A DNA stretch of 64,000 nt from Fontisphaera persica (GTDB lineage: Bacteria > Verrucomicrobiota > Verrucomicrobiia > Limisphaerales > Fontisphaeraceae): NCBI RefSeq assembly GCF_024832785.1, contig NZ_CP116615.1, positions 3,782,001-3,846,000 of the forward strand, written 5' to 3'. A program made the translations under genes and the position numbers. This document shows positions 28,181 through 37,130 of this stretch, in pieces; within the stretch, counting starts at the first letter, position 1, and each line of letters opens with the position of its first letter. The notes beneath the pieces were generated by a model. It did no database searches and was not told the origin of the DNA. It saw only the letters and a program-made list of their open reading frames with translations.

Positions 28181-31100
28181 CTAGGCCATGGGGGGAGGCG
28201 TACTGTGTTTGGTTTGTTCGAGGGTGCGGGTGAGTTCGAGCACGTGTTGTTGGAGCTGCTCCCAGAGGGAGGCTGCCACGGGGCCGGTCTGGCCTTCATG
28301 GCCGAGTTTTTCCAATTCTGCGCACAGGGCGGCGAGGCGGGCGGCACCCATGTTGCGGGCGCTGCCTTTGAGGCTGTGGGCGGCATTTTTCAGGGCAGCG
28401 GCATCCTGGCGGTGGACGGCGTCGCCGATGAGCTGGAGGCGGCGGGGGAGGTCTTGCAGGAATAAATCAATCATTTCCACGACGGGGTCGGGCTGGCCGG
28501 CTTGTTGTAACTGGCGCAGGCGCAGCAGGGCCTGGTTATCGAGCACGGGCAGGGTGGCGTCGCCGCCGGGGTTGGCGGGCGGGGAGGTTTCCGGCGTGGC
28601 CGGCGCGGGCGTGGCAGCCGGCGCGGGCGCGGCAGGGCGGATGGGGATGCCGGCGCGGGTGAAGGCGGCCAATAATTCGCTGAGTTCCACCGGTTTTTGG
28701 ACGTAATCATCCATGCCGGCGGCGAGGCAGCGTTCGCGGTCGCCGAGGAGGGCGTTGGCGGTGATGGCGATGAGGTAAGGGCGGGAGCGGAGGGGCGGCT
28801 GGGCCTGGGGGTCGTGGAGGCGGCGTTTGATTTCGCGGGCGGCGGTGTAGCCGTCCATTTCGGGCATGTTGCAGTCCAGCAGGACCACGTCGTAGGGGAT
28901 GCGCTCCAGGGCTTCGATGGCTTCCTTGCCGTTGGCCACAGCGTCGGCGCGGAGGCCCAGCTTGGCCAGTTGCCGCAGGGCCACCTTTTGGTTGACGGGG
29001 TTGTCTTCGGCCACGAGGACGCGCAACGTGCGGGAGGGGTCCACAGGGCGAAGGACGGCGTCGGGCAGCAGCGGATGCAGGAGGTCCTCGCGGCCGGTGG
29101 CCAAACCGATGAGGCACTCGAGCAGGCGCGTTTGTTTCAGCGGTTTGAAGAGGCAGAGGGCGATGCCGGCGGCGTGGAGGACTTCAGGGTCGGGGCGCTG
29201 GCCCACGAGGGTGAAGAGGAGGAGGCGGGCGTGTTCATCGAGGCCATCGGCCTTGATTTGGCGGGCCAGGGCGAGGCCGGAGACATCGGGCATCTGCATG
29301 TCGAGCAGGATGAAATCGAAGCGCTGGCCGGCGGCTTTGCGGGCGCGCAATTTTTCCATGGCCTGGGCGCTGGTGGCGGCCAGTTCGACGCGCATGCCCC
29401 AGTAGCCGAGGAGGTACTCCACCAATTCGCGGGTGGCCTGGTGGTCGTCCACCAGGAGCACGGAGAGGCCGGCCAGGGCTTGAACGTTTTGCAGGCGGCC
29501 GGGGGTGGCGGGCTGGTCGGGCACCTTGTCCAGGGGCACTTCAAACCAGAAGGTGGAGCCGTGGCCGGGGGTGGAGTGGACGCCGATGCGTCCGCCCATG
29601 AGTTCCACCAGTTGCTTGGAGATGGCCAGGCCGAGGCCGGTGCCGCCGTAGCGGCGGGTGGTGCTGCCGTCGGCCTGCACGAAACTTTGGAAAATCCGGC
29701 CCTGGGCCTCTGGCGGGATGCCGATGCCGGTATCGCGGACTTCAAAGCGGACGGTGACCTGGTGGTCGTTTTCGGCGAGCTTGGAGATGTGGACGAGCAC
29801 TTCGCCCTGTTCGGTAAATTTGACCGCGTTGCCGGCCAGGTTGAGGAGTACCTGGCGGAGGCGGCCGGCATCGCCCTGGACCATGACCGGCAGGTCGCAG
29901 TTGACCCAGGAGACCAGCTCCAGATTTTTCTGGTGGGCGCGCTCGGCGAGGACTTCGAGGGTGGTTTCAGCCAGGTCGCGGAGCGGGAAGGGGATTTTTT
30001 CCAGCGCCATACGGCCCGCCTCGATTTTGGAGAGGTCCAGCAGTTCATTGATTAAATCCTGCAGGGCACTGGCACTGGAGCGGATGATTTCCACATATTC
30101 GCGCTGTTCCTCGGTGAGGTGGGTTTCGGCCAGCAGGCCGGCGATGCCCACAATGCCGTTCATGGGGGTGCGGATTTCATGGCTGACATTGGTGAGGAAC
30201 TCGGTTTTGAGGCGGGCGGATTCGACGGCGGCGCGGCGGGCGTTTTCGCTTTCCATTTCGGCTTTTTTGCGGGCGGTGATTTCCTCGACGGTGCCCTCGT
30301 AATAGGCCACTTCGCCATTTTCATCCTGCACGGCGCGGGCGTTTTCGGAAATCCAGATGGTGCTGCCGTCGCGGCGGTACACCTCGGACTCAAAGCCGGT
30401 GACGGTGCCTTTTTCGCGCATGAGGCGGATGAATTCCTCGCGGCGGTGGGGGTTGACGTAGAGCTGGTGCTCGATGTCGGTGAGGGCGCGCATCAACTCC
30501 TCGCGCGAGTCGTAGCCGTACATGCGGGCGAGGGCGGGGTTGGCGTCGAGGTAGCGCCCGTCGGGGGTGGTCTGGAAAATGCCCTCGACGGCGCGCTCGA
30601 AGATGGTGCGGTATTTTTCCTGGGCGGTGCGCAGGGCTTTCTCGGTTTCCAGCAGGCGGGTGACTTCGGTGGAGATGCCGATGAGGCCGCGCAGATGGCC
30701 GGAGGAGCTGTAGAGCGGCACTTTATTGGTGATGACCGAGTGGGCCACGCCTTCGGCATCCACGATTTCCTCGAGTTTCTCCAACACCGGCTTGCCGGTG
30801 AGCAGGAGTTGCTGTTCCTCCTCGTAGCGGCGCTGGGCGATTTCGCGGGGCAGAAAGTCGAAGTCGGTGCGGCCGATGGCCTGGTCCGGCGAGGCCAGGC
30901 CCAGCCAGCGGGCCATGCTGGCGCTGCAACGGAGGATGCGCAGGTCCACGTCTTTGAAGTAAATCAGGTCAGGGGTGTTGGCGAGCAGGGCGCGCAACAG
31001 GTCGCGCTCGTAGGCCAGCGCCTCCTCCATCTGCTTGCGTTCGGTGACGTCCCAAAAGATGCCCTGGACGCCGATGACGTGGTTGAAGGCGTCGAAGATG

Positions 31101-31939
31101 GGGGTTTTGATGACGTGGACATAGCGCTTCTGGCCGTCCTTGGTCTGGTTGGCCTCGATGATGTCCAGGGGCTGGCGGCTCTGCATGACCATCTGGTCAT
31201 CGCGCCGGAATTTCTCCGCCATTTCCGGGGGGAAAAAGTCGAAGTCGGTGCGGCCCAGGATTTCCTCCGGCTTCAGGCCGAGCATCTGGCAGAAGCGCTG
31301 GTTGGCGAAGGTGAAGCGGCCGGCGTCGTCTTTGCGAATGATGTGCTGGGGGAGGCTTTCCACCAGGGAGTGGTAAAAGGCCTCGGATTCCTCCAGCGCC
31401 TGCATGGCGCGGTGATAATCCTCGGCGGCCTGTTCCAGGGCGCGCACATTGAGCCGCAGCTCGAGGTGGAGCATGACCTGGTGGGCGAGGATGCGCAGGG
31501 CCTCCAGTTGTTCCCACGGCAGCTCGCGGGGTTTTTCGTCCATGACGCACAGCACGCCCAGCGCATGATTCTCGCTGTTGACCAGCGGCGCGCCGGCGTA
31601 GAAGCGAATGGCGCGCCCGTCCAGCGCCAGCGGCTGGCCCGCCCAGCGCGGGTCGGCCTGCACATCGGTGACCATCATGACGCGGTGGCTGAGAATGGCC
31701 TCGGTGCAGAGACTGCCCTGGCGGGGCGCCTGGGTGACCGTCACGCCCACGCGCGATTTGAAAAACAGGCGCTCAGCGTCCACCAGGGTGATGAGGGCGA
31801 TGGGGGTGCCGGTGATTTGGGCCGCCAGGCGGGCGAGTTCATCCAGGGCTTCCTCCGGCGGGGTATCCAACACCTCGTAGCGGCTGAGCGACTCCAGCCG
31901 TTGTTGTTCATTGGGCGGCATGGGTGTGGTCATGGTCAT
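28181..31939 (-). CDS. Hybrid sensor histidine kinase: GAF-PAS-PAS-PAS-HisKA-HATPase-REC-REC-HPt
   Basis: The protein has 1252 residues from the ATG at 31939. GAF domain at ~15-165 ([20 protein letters not shown]). Three PAS domains at ~185-302, 310-432 and 440-560 (each ending in DVTER, STEVTR or VEEIT). HisKA has phospho-acceptor H587 in [12 protein letters not shown]; HATPase at ~690-805 has DTGIGIP and [10 protein letters not shown]. Receiver 1 has D880 in LLDMQMPD, receiver 2 has D1022 in [11 protein letters not shown], and the HPt domain has H1188 in [14 protein letters not shown]. No membrane segment is seen, so it senses a cytoplasmic ligand or redox/light signal. A full internal phosphorelay is present; the output regulator is not nearby. 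Confidence 0.92.
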
Positions 31940-32128
31940 GCTCGTGATTAACCGTATCCCTTTCCGGCTCCGGCGTCCAGCGGGGCGATGGCCAGGGCCC
32001 GGGCTTTTCACCGGGGGCGGGGGGCTGGGACAGCAAGGGAAGCCGGTGGCGCCGGACTTTTTTGCTTTTGGGCTTGCGGGGAGACTGGGGCGGGGTGGTA
32101 GTATCTGGTTCAGGTTAACGCAGCTTTC

Positions 32129-32719
32129 ATGTACTTTTACGTCATTTGCCTGGTGGTTGGGCTGGTATTCACGCTGCTGTGCGCCATTTTTGGGCACTTT
32201 TTTGGCGGGCATGACGCGGATGTGGGGGATGTGGAAGGGGCCGATGGCAGCGTGGGGACCGGCGGTCATGCGGAGGCGGGTTTTGCCGATTCCGGCGTAC
32301 CGGCGTTGTCGTTTTTCAGTCCCACCGTGCTGGCTACTTTTGTGACGGCGTTTGGGGCGATTGGCACGATTCTCTCGTCCATTGACAGCGTGCGGGGCAA
32401 GCATTTGATTATTGCCACCATTGCCGCTTCGGGGGGCATGGCCATTGCGTGGGTGGCGCTGATGGTGTTTAACACAGCTTTTCGCAAGATGCAGGGCTCG
32501 AGCGAGTCGCGGGTGTCGCGGCTCATCGGCCAGGAGGCCAACGTCATCACCGCCATCCCGGCCGGGGGGGTGGGCGAGATTGCCTACATTCAGTCCGGCA
32601 CACGGTACAATGCGCCGGCGCGGACGGAGAACGGGCAGCCGGTGGCGGCGGGGCAGTTGGTGCGCATCAAGCGCGTGGTGGGCACGCAATTTTACGTGGA
32701 ACCGTTGACGGAGAAGTAA
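32129..32719 (+). CDS. NfeD-like membrane protein (flotillin partner)
   Basis: The protein has 196 residues. Hydrophobic helices lie at ~3-25 (YVICLVVGLVFTLLCAIFGH), ~60-85 and ~93-115. The C-terminal ~75 residues form an NfeD-type OB-fold (LIGQEANVITAIPAGGVGEI; YNAPARTENGQPVAAG; VVGTQFYVEPL). NfeD1b/YuaF-type proteins are partners of flotillins, and the flotillin gene starts 31 bp downstream. The stretch between helix 1 and 2 is His/Asp/Gly-rich (FGHFFGGHDADVGDVEGADG), which could bind metal. Confidence 0.85.
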   Translation: MYFYVICLVVGLVFTLLCAIFGHFFGGHDADVGDVEGADGSVGTGGHAEAGFADSGVPALSFFSPTVLATFVTAFGAIGTILSSIDSVRGKHLIIATIAASGGMAIAWVALMVFNTAFRKMQGSSESRVSRLIGQEANVITAIPAGGVGEIAYIQSGTRYNAPARTENGQPVAAGQLVRIKRVVGTQFYVEPLTEK

Positions 32720-32750
32720 GGCGAAACCAGGCATTCATCTTCCATTACTT

Positions 32751-34319
32751 ATGACGACACCTGTCTTGTTTGCGGAAATCAGCACGCCGGTGCTGGTGGG
32801 GCTGGGCATCGGGGCGCTGCTGTTTGTGTTTTTCCTGTTTGCGGCGCTGTGGGCCAGCCGGTTCACCAAGGTGGGGCCCAATGAGGTGCTGGTGGTTTCC
32901 GGCCGCAAACACCGGCTGGAGGACGGCACGGAGGTGGGCTTCCGCATCGTCAAAGGCGGCGGCACCTTTGTGATGCCGGTGGTGGAAAAGGTGGATGTGC
33001 TGTCCCTGGAGCTGCTGACCATTGATGTGCAGACGCCGGAGGTGTACACGGTCAAGGGCGTGCCGGTGCGGGTGGACGGCGTGGCGCAAATCAAGGTCAA
33101 GGGCGACGATGTGAGCATCCGCACGGCGGCGGAGCAATTCCTGAGCAAGGGGCGGGATGAAATCAAAAACATTGCCACGCAGACGCTGGAAGGGCATTTG
33201 CGCGCGATTCTGGGCACGTTGAGCGTGGAGGATATTTACCAGAACCGCGATGCCTTCGCCGCCAAGGTGCAGGAGGTGGCCGCCGGCGACATGGCCAACA
33301 TGGGGCTGGCCATTGTGAGCTTCACCATCCGCGACATTCGCGACAATCAGGGGTATTTGGAGGCGCTGGGCAAGCCGCGCATTGCGCAGGTCAAACGCGA
33401 CGCGCAGATTGCGCAGGCCGAGGCGGACCGCGACGCGATGATTAAGAGCGCCGAGGCGATGCAGAAAGGGCAGGAGGCCAAGTTTGCGGCGGACACCAAG
33501 ATTGCGGAGGCGCAACGGGATTACCAGATCAACGTGGCCACCTATCAGGCGGCGGTGAACAAGCAGAAGGCCGAGGCCGATTTGGCGTACGACTTGCAGA
33601 AGTACAAGACCGGCCAGTTGGTCAAGGCCGAGGAAGTGCAGGTCAACATCATTGAGAAGCAAAAGCAGATTGAGCTGCAGGAGCAGGAAATCCGCCGCAA
33701 GGAGCGCGAGCTGCAGGCCAATGTGCAAAAGCCGGCCGAGGCCGAGCGGTACAAGGTGGAAACGCTGGCGAATGCCAAAAAATATCAGCTCGAGACCGAG
33801 GCCGCCGGCGCCGCCGAGGCCACCAAGCTGGCCGGCTTTGCCAACGCGGAAGCCGCCAAGGCCCAGGGTCTGGCGCAGGCCGAAATTGTGAAGGCCACCG
33901 GTCTGGCGCAGGCGGAAGCCGAGCGCGCCAAGGGTCTGGCCGAGGCGGCCGTCATCGAAGCCCAGGGCAAGGCGCAGGCCGAGGCGATGCGCCTGAAGGC
34001 CGAGTCCTTCAAGCTTTACAATGAAGCCGCCGTGATTGAAATGATGGTCAAGGTGCTGCCGGAGGTGGCCGCGCGCATCAGCGAACCGCTCAGCAAGACC
34101 GAGAAGATTGTCATCATCAATTCGGGCAACGGCCCCGGCGGCGGCGCCAGCAAGCTCACCGGGGATGTCACCCAAATCATCAGCCAGTTGCCGCCCGTGC
34201 TGGAAAGCCTGACCGGCATCAAGTTTGAAAAACTGCTGCAGCAGGTGCCGGCGCTGCGGCAGGCGATGGACGGCAAAGGCAAGCCCGGCGATTTGGGGAC
34301 GCCGCCCAGCGCCAGTTAA
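32751..34319 (+). CDS. Flotillin (SPFH domain, membrane-microdomain scaffold)
   Basis: The protein has 522 residues. One N-terminal membrane helix (~12-35, GLGIGALLFVFFLFAALWA) is followed by the SPFH domain (VGPNEVLVVSGRKHRLEDG; VRVDGVAQIKVKGDDVSIR; ETLEGHLRAILGTLSVEDI-like region). A long Glu/Ala-rich coiled coil (~230-430) carries repeated AEA/AKGLA segments, as in FloT. The C-terminal region includes KTEKIVIINSGNGPGGG, as in flotillin family tails. It oligomerises to organise lipid microdomains. It lies between NfeD-like and carbonic-anhydrase-like genes with short gaps, indicating an operon. Confidence 0.93.
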   Translation: MTTPVLFAEISTPVLVGLGIGALLFVFFLFAALWASRFTKVGPNEVLVVSGRKHRLEDGTEVGFRIVKGGGTFVMPVVEKVDVLSLELLTIDVQTPEVYTVKGVPVRVDGVAQIKVKGDDVSIRTAAEQFLSKGRDEIKNIATQTLEGHLRAILGTLSVEDIYQNRDAFAAKVQEVAAGDMANMGLAIVSFTIRDIRDNQGYLEALGKPRIAQVKRDAQIAQAEADRDAMIKSAEAMQKGQEAKFAADTKIAEAQRDYQINVATYQAAVNKQKAEADLAYDLQKYKTGQLVKAEEVQVNIIEKQKQIELQEQEIRRKERELQANVQKPAEAERYKVETLANAKKYQLETEAAGAAEATKLAGFANAEAAKAQGLAQAEIVKATGLAQAEAERAKGLAEAAVIEAQGKAQAEAMRLKAESFKLYNEAAVIEMMVKVLPEVAARISEPLSKTEKIVIINSGNGPGGGASKLTGDVTQIISQLPPVLESLTGIKFEKLLQQVPALRQAMDGKGKPGDLGTPPSAS

Positions 34320-34331
34320 TCTCCTGACCCC

Positions 34332-35549
34332 ATGCGCCTGCTGGAAGCCATCCTCGACGCTCAAAACCGCGCCGGCGGCGGTGGCGAGGGGGAGGCCCGC
34401 GTGCCCGCCGCGGCCCATGCGGCGGCACTGCCGCTGGTGGTGTTGAGCTGCGTGGACCCGCGGCTGAACACCAAACTGCCCCGTGCCCTCGGTTTGGCCG
34501 AGGACCAGTTCATCTGGCTCCGCAATGCGGGCAACATCATCACCGGCCCGCTGAGCAGCACCATGCGCTCGCTGGCGCTGGCGTGCCTGGTCAAGGGCGG
34601 GCGGGAAATTGCGGTGATTGGCCATACCGGCTGCCGCGTGGCCCACACCAGCATCATGGAATTGACGGAGGCGATGAAAAAGCTGGGCATTGAGCGCGCC
34701 CGGCTGCCGGAGAACCTGGTGGAGTATTTTGGGTTGTTTGCCAGCGAGCGGCAAAATGTCATCAAGGCGGTGGAGTTCATCCGGAGCAGCCCGCTGATCA
34801 GCCCCCGGTTGCCCGTGCATGGCTTGATCATGAATACCGATTCCGGACGGCTGGAGTGGGTCGCCAACGGTTACCAGGCCTTGGAGCAGACCACCACCGA
34901 ATACCACTCCACCATCCGCCCGCCGGAAACGGTGGGCACGCCGCTGGAGGAATTGCCCGGCTACAAGTCCGCTGGGCTGGCAATGCCGGAGACCCAAATT
35001 GGTGAACATGCCACTCAATTGGGCGGCGTCAGCAGCGGGACGCCGTCCCTGCCGGTGCAGCCGGCCGCAGCAGTGGCGGCCGCGGCGGTGGGCACGGCGG
35101 CGGCCACCGGGCAAATTGGGACGGTGACCTCCGAAGCAGCCACTCCAGCCGTGACGCCCGGCGGCGCGCCAATCGGCGAGCAGCCCCGGATGACGATTGC
35201 GCAGCGTGTCGGTGAACGCCTCGGGCAAACGGTGGCGGAAAAAGTGACGGAGTTTTTGGAGACCAGGCTGGAGGGGGCGGAAACGGCCGGGCAGGCGATT
35301 GAAGTGTTGCTCAAGAAAATTGATCCCAACCGCCGATACACTTTGATTGGCAGTGATCAAAAGCGCTATGGGCCGGTCTCCGGGCGCATTGTGCAGCAAT
35401 GGCTGACCGACAACCGGATTGACGCCAACACCCCCGTGCAGGTGGAAGGCTCCAGCATCTGGCAGACCCTCGCCACACTGCCGGAATTAAAATCGCTGCG
35501 GTTGCCTCCTCCCATTGGCGGGCAGGAAGTGCGCAAAAAAGGAAAGTAA
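34332..35549 (+). CDS. Beta-carbonic-anhydrase-like protein with C-terminal GYF_2-type domain
   Basis: The protein has 405 residues. Residues ~30-195 show the beta-carbonic anhydrase core: C40, D42 and R44 in LSCVDPRLN, and H98 and C101 in IGHTGC. So the three zinc ligands and the Asp-Arg dyad are all present. A low-complexity Ala/Thr/Pro linker (~235-295) follows, then a helical part. The last ~70 residues, RRYTLIGSDQKRYGPVSGRI with WLTDNRIDANT, resemble GYF_2 domains, which bind peptides. No signal peptide. The start lies 12 bp after the flotillin stop, so it is probably cotranscribed and may be a flotillin-raft protein. Activity needs testing; the fusion is unusual. Confidence 0.75.
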   Translation: MRLLEAILDAQNRAGGGGEGEARVPAAAHAAALPLVVLSCVDPRLNTKLPRALGLAEDQFIWLRNAGNIITGPLSSTMRSLALACLVKGGREIAVIGHTGCRVAHTSIMELTEAMKKLGIERARLPENLVEYFGLFASERQNVIKAVEFIRSSPLISPRLPVHGLIMNTDSGRLEWVANGYQALEQTTTEYHSTIRPPETVGTPLEELPGYKSAGLAMPETQIGEHATQLGGVSSGTPSLPVQPAAAVAAAAVGTAAATGQIGTVTSEAATPAVTPGGAPIGEQPRMTIAQRVGERLGQTVAEKVTEFLETRLEGAETAGQAIEVLLKKIDPNRRYTLIGSDQKRYGPVSGRIVQQWLTDNRIDANTPVQVEGSSIWQTLATLPELKSLRLPPPIGGQEVRKKGK

Positions 35550-35559
35550 GACCACCCCC

Positions 35560-37130
35560 GCCCGCAGGGATTTTGCCCCATCCCTTCTTTGCCTTCCCCG
35601 ACTCCTTCTGTCCAAAATCCGTGTTCATCCGTGTCCCTTTACCCCATCGCGGGAAACGACTAGTGTGAGGGTGTGTAGCGCGGGCGTCGGCCCCATGTAG
35701 CGCAGGCGTCTCGCCTGCGAGTGATGCCTGCGTCCCGCAGGCCTATTCCCACCTTGCGATTCGTAAACGCCTGCGTTACGGCGCATGAAAGATTGACGCG
35801 AGGCCTAGTGCTTCCAGGCGCGTCCACTTGACGTTGGCAGTTCTGTAGTCACGGAGCCGGGAGGCTCCGTGAACCCGCAGGCGGGACGCCTGCGCTACAC
35901 ACCCTCACCTTGGCCTTTTACCACGATGGGGTGGAGGGAAAAGGTGGCAGAAAGGGTGAAGGGGAAAACACTAACCACGAATGAACACGAATGGACACAA
36001 ATTTTGAACAGAAGGAAACGAAGGGAACGAAGAGGGAGAAGAGGCCCCTCACCCTGACCCTCTTGCCGAGGGGGACAATGGAACTGTTAATGGGCGTTGT
36101 GGGATTTTTTCGCCCGCTTTGTTGGCTACAGGCCAAGATGAAGATGAGGGAAACGGCAGCCGCTCAAATAAAACTCATTCATCCCTTGCCCCCGGCCTGC
36201 AAGACGCAGGCCTTATCCCGCCTTGCGGGACGAGAACATCTGCGTTGCGGCACAGAAAGGATTGGCGCGCGGACTGGTGCTTACATGCGCGTCTGTTTGA
36301 TGACGGCAATTCTGCAATCACGGAGCCGGGAGGCTCCTTGAACCCGCAGGCGGGACGCCTGCGCTACACACCCTCACCTTGGCCTTTTACCACGATGGGG
36401 TGGAGGGAAAAGGTGGCAGAAAGGGGGAAGGGGAAAACACTAACCACGAATGAACACGAATGGACACAAATTTTGAACAGAAGGAAACGAAGGGAACGAA
36501 GAGGGAGAAGAGGCCCCTCAGCCTGACCTTCTCCCGGGGGGAAAGGGGGGGATTATAGCGGGACGGATTATCCTGCCCCTAGCCTGTGGGACGCCATACG
36601 TTATGGCTAATGCGAGATTGTGATGCGGCTTTGGTGCCTCCAGAAGCGTCTGTTTGATGACGGCAATTTGCAATCACGGAGCCGGGAGGCTCCGTGAACC
36701 CGCAGGCGAGACGCCTGCGCTACACACCCTCACCTTGGCCTTTTACCACGATGGGGTGGAGGGAAAAGGTGGCAGAAAGGGTGAAGGGGAAAACACTAAC
36801 CACGAATGAACACGAATGGACACAAATTTTGAACAGAAGGAAACGAAGGGAACGAAGAGGGAGAAGAGGCTCCTCAGCCTGACCCTCTTGCCGAGGGGGG
36901 GAGAGGGGGGATTTTTAGCTGCGCGTTTTCTGCTGCCCTAGATTCGGAGTTCTCCCCAGCCTGCGGGACGCAGGCCAAACTCGCAGGCGAGGACGCCTGC
37001 GCTACGGCGCATGAAAGATTGATGCGCGGCTTGGTGCTTCCAAGGGCGTTTGTTTGACGACGGCAATTTGCAATCACGGAGCCGGGAGGCTCCGTGAACC
37101 CGCAGGCGAGACGCCTGCGCTACGCGGGCG
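35560..37130. repeat. Repeat-rich gene-free region, composite hairpin family, array 2
   Basis: No credible gene is seen. The unit CACGGAGCC-GGGA-GGCTCCGTG plus AACCC plus GCAGGCG-x-CGCCTGC starts at about 35850, 36319, 36675 and 37075; the first three continue with the long tail through ACCACGAATGAACACGAATG and AGAAGGAAACGAAGGGAACG. Spacings (469, 356, 400 bp) differ because of variable linkers. An inverted partial copy lies at about 35695-35720. Each long copy carries the same ~62-codon open frame because the DNA is nearly identical. Base 36322-36345 has a G-to-T change that breaks the first hairpin (GGCTCCTTG). Confidence 0.85.
36476..36620 (+). repeat. 145-bp block nearly identical to 16596-16740
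   Basis: Partner of the block in array 1, with two substitutions over 145 bp. Other copies in this same array are more different from it than the distant partner is. Confidence 0.85.

Follow-up and report, generated by a model that had tools for sequence, protein, structure and literature searches.

Why would a bacterium encode a carbonic anhydrase-like protein immediately behind a flotillin? The question is raised by a cluster of three genes in Fontisphaera persica (Verrucomicrobiota; Limisphaerales), the genome of which is one 4.73 Mb contig (NZ_CP116615.1). We analyzed 64,000 nucleotides of this contig, hereinafter the window, which correspond to its positions 3782001-3846000. The cluster consists of genes for an NfeD-like protein, a flotillin and a 405-residue protein, with intergenic gaps of 31 bp (NfeD-like to flotillin) and 12 bp (flotillin to enzyme). 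An earlier reading of the window from its letters alone (the original prediction) had placed the three genes and the gaps exactly where the open reading frames (ORFs) do, and had proposed that a CO2/bicarbonate enzyme, or a zinc-binding relative, is tethered to flotillin assemblies. Comparison with relatives establishes a conserved gene order, co-inheritance with flotillin, a conserved active site, a predicted fold similar to that of the carbonic anhydrase Cab and a shared tail motif; docking by the tail motif, CO2 catalysis and a benefit of the placement are what we infer. Taking the entire chain loosely, we lean toward an active carbonic anhydrase that is placed on the flotillin assembly by its tail. 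The features on which the argument draws are the following, all in window coordinates.

32129..32719, plus strand: NfeD-like membrane protein, 196 residues, first gene of the cluster (ORF, match to PF01957, hydrophobic N-terminal segment)
32751..34319, plus strand: flotillin, FloT-like, 522 residues (Band_7, Flot, FloT model, Flotillin-1 in the PDB)
34332..35549, plus strand: flotillin-linked carbonic anhydrase with tail, 405 residues (ORF, Pfam, hydropathy)
34437..34850, plus strand: Cab-like beta-carbonic anhydrase domain, residues 36-173 (PF00484; 1g5c nearest by sequence and predicted fold)
34449..34463, plus strand: C40 (zinc ligand), D42 and R44 (dyad), conserved in 108, 108 and 109 of 109 rows (sequence)
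34623..34634, plus strand: H98 and C101 (zinc ligands), each conserved in 108 of 109 rows (sequence)
34971..35006, plus strand: tail motif, residues 214-225 (AGLAMPETQIGE), a diverged copy of the family motif GEMKFPExKIG[E/D] (alignment columns)
35007..35321, plus strand: linker, residues 226-330, of low complexity in 226-285 and then a predicted helical stretch (predicted local distance difference test, pLDDT; ratio of nonsynonymous to synonymous substitution rates, dN/dS)
35352..35489, plus strand: GYF_2 domain, residues 341-386, followed by LPPPIGG and a basic end (PF14237, dN/dS)

The neighborhood is widely conserved. We gathered loci via the enzyme alone (117 non-redundant loci, the window not counted), so that linkage to flotillin was not selected for. 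Flotillin is encoded on the same strand within about 3 kb at 91 of the 117 loci, upstream of the enzyme at 90 of these 91 and less than 100 bp away at 27; eight of the 91 flotillin frames are shorter than 300 residues, several of them at contig ends. A relative of NfeD accompanies the pair at 78 linked loci. The linkage also survives extra ORFs between flotillin and enzyme: the gap exceeds 150 bp at 61 loci, 57 of which hold an ORF of at least 70 codons in it. One cluster of such inserted ORFs was found at 21 loci, and the member tested matched PLDc_N; examples of two other clusters matched PspC and DnaJ. The fourth example gave no family match. For the family as a whole, the gene is linked to flotillin; a lack of linkage, which the original prediction had named as a finding that would count against it, occurs as single exceptions.

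Several arrangements within these clusters deserve mention. The occurrence of PLDc_N, PspC and DnaJ between flotillin and enzyme (loci L055, L130 and L155) points to membrane or stress genes as further members. At L184 (1246-4147, minus strand), the cluster is rearranged to the order enzyme, NfeD, flotillin, all on one strand, so that the enzyme gene can come first. At L051 (8189-8842), a second, shorter flotillin-like ORF of 217 residues lies between NfeD and the full-length flotillin.

The two genes also tend to occur in the same genomes. Among the 146 genomes searched, including the window's own, a strong enzyme match (E <1e-30) was found in 60 and flotillin in 66; both were present in 54, the enzyme alone in 6, flotillin alone in 12 and neither in 74. 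Flotillin is thus found in 54 of 60 genomes with the enzyme compared to 12 of 86 without it (Fisher p 3.7e-21, not corrected for kinship). In two of the six enzyme-only genomes, the contig ends inside a piece of flotillin (G139) or at the enzyme itself (G019), and of the 12 flotillin-only genomes, eight were inspected around flotillin, where the fetched DNA showed no relative of the enzyme. The enzyme and flotillin genes are usually inherited together; linkage and co-occurrence together rule out a chance neighborhood.

In wider scans, relatives (E up to 1e-20) were detected in 35 of 384 genomes drawn from the class. Of these, 26 belong to the same order as the window, the genome of which is counted among them, and nine do not; among the nine, G263 gave a weak match to a protein without a tail. 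Three of 288 genomes drawn from the phylum contained a relative, and all three belong to the same class; in both scans, only the best candidates per genome were scored. A scan of named genomes, the sole reach into other phyla, yielded 131 stretches encoding a relative; by eye, the best 80 of these 131 are mostly labeled Verrucomicrobia, Pedosphaera or Limisphaerales, with a few odd and unchecked labels (Proteobacteria, Omnitrophota, Akkermansia).

What, then, is the enzyme? The Pro_CA family (PF00484) matches residues 36-173 of the window protein with 39.2 bits (cut-off 25.7) and all 109 aligned members at E up to 0.01. Among solved structures, Cab (1g5c) is closest in sequence, at E 2.7e-21 for the window protein alone and 1.1e-29 with a 25-row family profile. 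In a Foldseek search with the predicted structure of the window protein, the enzyme domain of which is mostly confident, 1g5c ranked first, and the predicted fold of the GYF-free relative of locus L164 superimposes on 1g5c over 158 residues with a Z score of 19.4 and a root-mean-square deviation of 2.6; these searches covered mainly the enzyme domain of predicted monomers. By profile and by fold, 1g5c is the best match, and the enzyme may belong to the Cab-type (clade D) beta-carbonic anhydrases, closer to Cab than to plant-type or E. coli-type enzymes. By sequence and predicted fold, the window protein is a beta-carbonic anhydrase, as had been proposed.

The active site supports this assignment. 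The residues singled out in the original prediction (C40, D42, R44, H98 and C101, that is, the zinc ligands and the Asp-Arg dyad) are all present at those positions in a domain that aligns with 1g5c. They are invariant in the 25-row alignment. In the larger alignment, 106 of 109 rows retain all five, among them 90 of the 91 linked rows (window counted, the cut-off L097 excluded). Relatives that lack a zinc ligand, the other finding that would have spoken against the prediction, are single members of the family. In L185 (5018-5893), which adjoins flotillin and belongs to another family of the class, C101 is replaced by Gly (HSDG instead of HTDC) and the other four residues are kept. In L092, a second copy whose start and end look odd, C40 aligns to Ser. 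In L091 (3478-4386), from a genome without a flotillin match, D42 is replaced by Glu and H98 by Pro; here the site seemingly decays once flotillin is gone, in one case only. A dead enzyme is ruled out for the family by the conserved site and allowed for these three members. Given the residues and the predicted fold, catalytic competence appears likely.

Selection acts on the protein unevenly. The set contains a single further genome of the genus (L038). Comparison with it by a simple counting method (dS 0.62 to 1.18) gave dN/dS values of 0.092 in the enzyme domain, 0.467 in the low-complexity linker (residues 226-285), 0.146 in residues 286-330, 0.066 in GYF_2 (residues 331-390) and 0.035 in flotillin. 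The enzyme, GYF_2 and flotillin are subject to purifying selection; the linker drifts, and both ends, the enzyme and GYF_2, are held.

How could such an enzyme be attached to flotillin? A membrane anchor is ruled out: the highest 19-residue hydropathy of the window protein, 1.62, lies within the enzyme domain, the tail reaches 1.40, and none of 112 relatives has a tail or first 30 residues with mean hydropathy above 1.6. All 109 aligned members extend beyond the enzyme domain by a tail of 27 to 215 residues, in which a motif of approximately G-E-M-K-F-P-E-x-K-I-G-[E/D] is widely shared, around residues 211-225 of the window protein. Counts for the motif columns, out of 109, are F 78, G 92, E 86, M 69, K 86, F 81, P 94, E 76, K 85, I 102, G 105 and E 75 (or D 22). 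The strict pattern GE[MLFI]KFP[ED]xKIGE fits 41 members and the short core [KRQ]IG[EDGQSA] alone fits 98; a loose form of the motif with Pro fits 88 (78 of 91 linked members, 8 of 15 without flotillin in reach and 2 of 3 at cut loci). In the model of L164, the first part of the motif falls within residues 205-221, where pLDDT is below 50, and a helix is predicted at 225-244. A short conserved motif in a disordered tail resembles a docking peptide; alternatively, the motif may pack within the enzyme dimer.

The low-complexity linker followed by a GYF_2-like end, as first described for the window protein, is borne out: residues 230-285 are predicted to be disordered (pLDDT below 50), helices are predicted at 289-296, 299-312 and 319-329, and GYF_2 (PF14237) scores 26.3 bits on the whole protein, just above the cut-off of 25.8, and 30.3 bits in the genome search. 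In the model of the window protein, block means of pLDDT are 72 to 91 for residues 331-370 and 50 for residues 371-380. The architecture itself does not travel with the linkage. When both were sought in other genomes, as had been suggested, linkage was common, and GYF_2 was present in 26 of 109 members, with the GYF signature YGP in 18 of 91 flotillin-linked members and most lacking it; GYF_2 is thereby ruled out as the general tether, and the short tail motif is the commoner feature. On a quick tree, the GYF label needs nine changes, of which well-supported branches force only one, so the sequences may reflect a single origin of the addition. Many GYF-free tails end in a proline-rich and basic stretch, for example, IPLPPPIRP (over the last 60 residues, the Pro fraction averages 0.23, compared to 0.10 with the GYF signature), and several GYF-bearing tails keep a similar end after GYF_2. 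Given these ends, GYF_2 could, speculatively, bind the tail of a neighboring enzyme.

The partner is a flotillin by several measures. The window protein matches Band_7 (113.5 bits) and Flot (36.7 bits), both above the Pfam cut-off, and aligns over nearly the full NCBIfam FloT model (505 bits, residues 22-499), missing the equivalog cut-off of 700; by that score rule, it is a FloT relative and not an equivalog. Among PDB chains, it matches Flotillin-1 (E 7.9e-104, residues 39-360) and Flotillin-2 (residues 40-345). The NfeD-like protein falls slightly below the Pfam cut-off for NfeD (PF01957, 28.2 bits against 29.1), its position before flotillin fits, and its hydrophobic N-terminal segment reaches a 19-residue hydropathy of 2.83. 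The strongest hydrophobic segment of flotillin, residues 14-32 (hydropathy 2.71), is preceded by an acidic residue and followed by Arg and Lys; under the positive-inside rule for membrane segments, this would leave the rest of flotillin in the cytosol. The enzyme has no signal-like segment by hydropathy and, like the flotillin body, would be cytosolic. The Flotillin1/2 complex has been described as a basket of 22 subunit pairs that measures 32 nm across and probably sits on the cytoplasmic side of membranes (PMC11260169), and SPFH proteins can enclose membrane proteins, for example, stomatin with aquaporin-1 (PMC12407830).

These observations suggest a mechanism in which a Cab-like beta-carbonic anhydrase, active in the cytosol and sharing a gene cluster with flotillin and NfeD, would dock on the cytosolic face of the flotillin assembly via its C-terminal tail and interconvert CO2 and bicarbonate next to the flotillin-organized membrane patch. 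The usual co-inheritance of the genes suggests that such chemistry is stationed at these patches. The benefit could be bicarbonate for membrane-bound carboxylation or transport, or local handling of pH and CO2. In the lineage of the window, the tail also carries GYF_2, probably as a second, proline-peptide contact. Physical association of the enzyme with flotillin, with docking deduced from the linkage, appears probable. A bolder and improbable extension is that the flotillin cage forms an open-bottomed CO2/bicarbonate chamber on the membrane, in or on which numerous enzyme copies would be loaded by the tail motif, creating a protein-walled reaction zone at the membrane without a carboxysome; GYF_2, where present, and the proline-rich tails of neighbors would cross-link the enzymes.

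Several observations weigh against placement of an active enzyme on flotillin by its tail. Flotillin was not seen in the fetched DNA at 18 of the 117 loci, and at a further eight the contig stops within 3 kb; the 18 include L100 and L190, which look like ordinary Cab-type enzymes and not orthologues, together with a distant relative (L098) and the odd second copy (L092). The loci are kin, so that the 91 linked loci are not independent events. Four genomes with the enzyme gave no flotillin match (G024, G028, G040 and G048) and, taken with the 12 flotillin-only genomes, indicate that neither gene strictly needs the other. The loose motif is missed by 21 of 109 tails, 13 of them linked, and the window's own copy is diverged. 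At the active site, the linked member L185 lacks C101. The position that follows the last zinc Cys, occupied by Gly in Cab and in the ordinary carbonic anhydrase of the window's genome, holds Leu, Gln or Arg in 52 of 65 rows, so the kinetics of the enzyme may differ.

Part of this record would suit the strongest alternative, namely, that linkage serves co-expression only, in a shared response to envelope or pH stress, with the enzyme free in the cytosol and the tail contributing to stability or oligomerization. Such an arrangement tolerates genomes that have flotillin alone (12 of 146) or the enzyme alone (6), as well as the 10 changes that the linkage label needs on a poorly resolved enzyme-domain tree (a short search, with 18 of 112 inner branches starred and long branches meeting), and it would account for the other membrane and stress genes in the clusters of relatives (PspC, PLDc_N and DnaJ among the examples tested). 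It does not require, however, that a short motif be widely kept in an otherwise variable tail, and order and strand are kept at 90 loci despite insertions. We therefore regard co-expression without contact as possible and clearly less probable than association.

A second alternative concerns the substrate, which could be carbonyl sulfide (COS) or carbon disulfide (CS2) instead of CO2; we consider this improbable. Cab is a CO2-hydrating enzyme and the clear best match by sequence (1.1e-29, compared to 7e-15 and 1.2e-7 for the CS2 hydrolase 3ten and the COS hydrolase 3vqj) and by fold, for which the two hydrolases reach Z scores of 14.1 and 14.3. Their presence among the matches speaks for the alternative, as does the existence of clade D beta-carbonic anhydrases that hydrolyze COS or CS2, some reportedly with negligible or no CO2 hydration (PMC8209446). 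The complement of carbonic anhydrases in each genome bears on the same point. In 22 of the 60 genomes with the enzyme, we obtained a single weak Pro_CA match (best E 3.2e-7 to 4.4e-12, a score typical of the flotillin-linked family), which, judging by score, was taken to be the flotillin-linked gene. No stronger beta-carbonic anhydrase was found in these 22 genomes, in which the flotillin-linked enzyme is apparently the only one of its class; the Pro_CA genome search can miss members, as in G024, where it gave one strong match only and a family member is present too. The window genome has a second, ordinary beta-carbonic anhydrase at C1:2792149-2792601, with the site CADSR and HYGC. Beyond the beta class, the search covered alpha-carbonic anhydrase, which matched in 7 of 146 genomes and in none of the 60 with the enzyme. 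By resemblance, CO2 is favored over COS or CS2.

The weakest alternative, a bicarbonate or zinc sensor or structural subunit in which the fold would bind a ligand on behalf of the flotillin complex and catalysis would take second place, would accommodate the lost zinc Cys of L185, the departure from the usual Gly after C101 and the precedent of DabA2, a beta-carbonic anhydrase-like fold serving a membrane complex with altered chemistry (PMC13144422), and is nonetheless very unlikely given that 90 of 91 linked rows retain the dyad and every zinc ligand.

An active enzyme placed on flotillin remains our preferred reading, and it has partial counterparts among known systems. Cab of Methanobacterium thermoautotrophicum shares the zinc ligands, the dyad and the fold, but is a chain of 170 residues, whereas the window protein has 215 more residues beyond residue 190; in the family of the window protein, the Gly after the last Cys is replaced and the gene is linked to flotillin. 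NfeD-flotillin operons, such as YuaF-YuaG of Bacillus subtilis and the SPFH2 groups, likewise have an NfeD-like gene directly before flotillin, without the enzyme gene added here; the word 'carbonic' is absent from the main text of this SPFH operon survey (PMC2636767). Flotillin-associated rhodopsin is another functional protein co-located and co-transcribed with flotillin, in that case in SAR11, HIMB59 and Pseudothioglobus, and 'carbonic' is again absent from the text (PMC10308929). The DAB2 complex (DabA2-DabB2) has a cytoplasmic beta-carbonic anhydrase-like subunit on a membrane complex, but serves CO2 uptake in autotrophs (PMC13144422). The Flotillin1/2 cage is related through both of its PDB chains, with no enzyme partner mentioned in the available text (PMC11260169).

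Within open-licence full texts of PubMed Central (PMC; subscription papers lie outside this set), no gene cluster and tail motif joining flotillin and carbonic anhydrase was described. A search combining flotillin, carbonic anhydrase and NfeD returned PMC7522525, the available text of which mentions them apart; flotillin and carbonic anhydrase in Verrucomicrobiota returned nothing, and carbonic anhydrase with GYF domain returned matches unrelated by title. Beta-carbonic anhydrases and NfeD-flotillin pairs are each well known; the conserved cluster and tail motif that join them are the new part, which we have not seen reported. As far as we know, few enzymes have been defined as partners of bacterial flotillins. 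An enzyme that is genetically coupled to flotillin, whose active site can be tested and whose tail holds a candidate motif for docking, makes the role of a flotillin assembly directly accessible to experiment, possibly represents an additional way of placing CO2 chemistry at the membrane, and flags a distinct subfamily of carbonic anhydrases.

The cluster is presumably co-transcribed. A promoter scan found no site and a terminator scan gave 9 compared to 4.9 expected, so these scans are useless for defining the operon. On the minus strand, a gene for a hybrid histidine kinase (GAF, PAS, HisKA, HATPase, receiver and Hpt; window 28181-32734) is transcribed away from the NfeD gene; the listed start of its ORF overlaps that gene, and the true start is probably nearer 31950, which is a guess. 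An open frame of 884 codons antisense to flotillin and the enzyme gene (32745-35399, minus strand) most likely arises from the codon usage of G+C-rich DNA. Behind the enzyme gene, at 35726-36850, lie three direct copies of a 300-base unit, spaced by 469 and 356 bases. Predicted ORFs within these repeats recur too and are unlikely to be genes; the later copies are 88% and 76% like the first, and related pieces extend to 37100.

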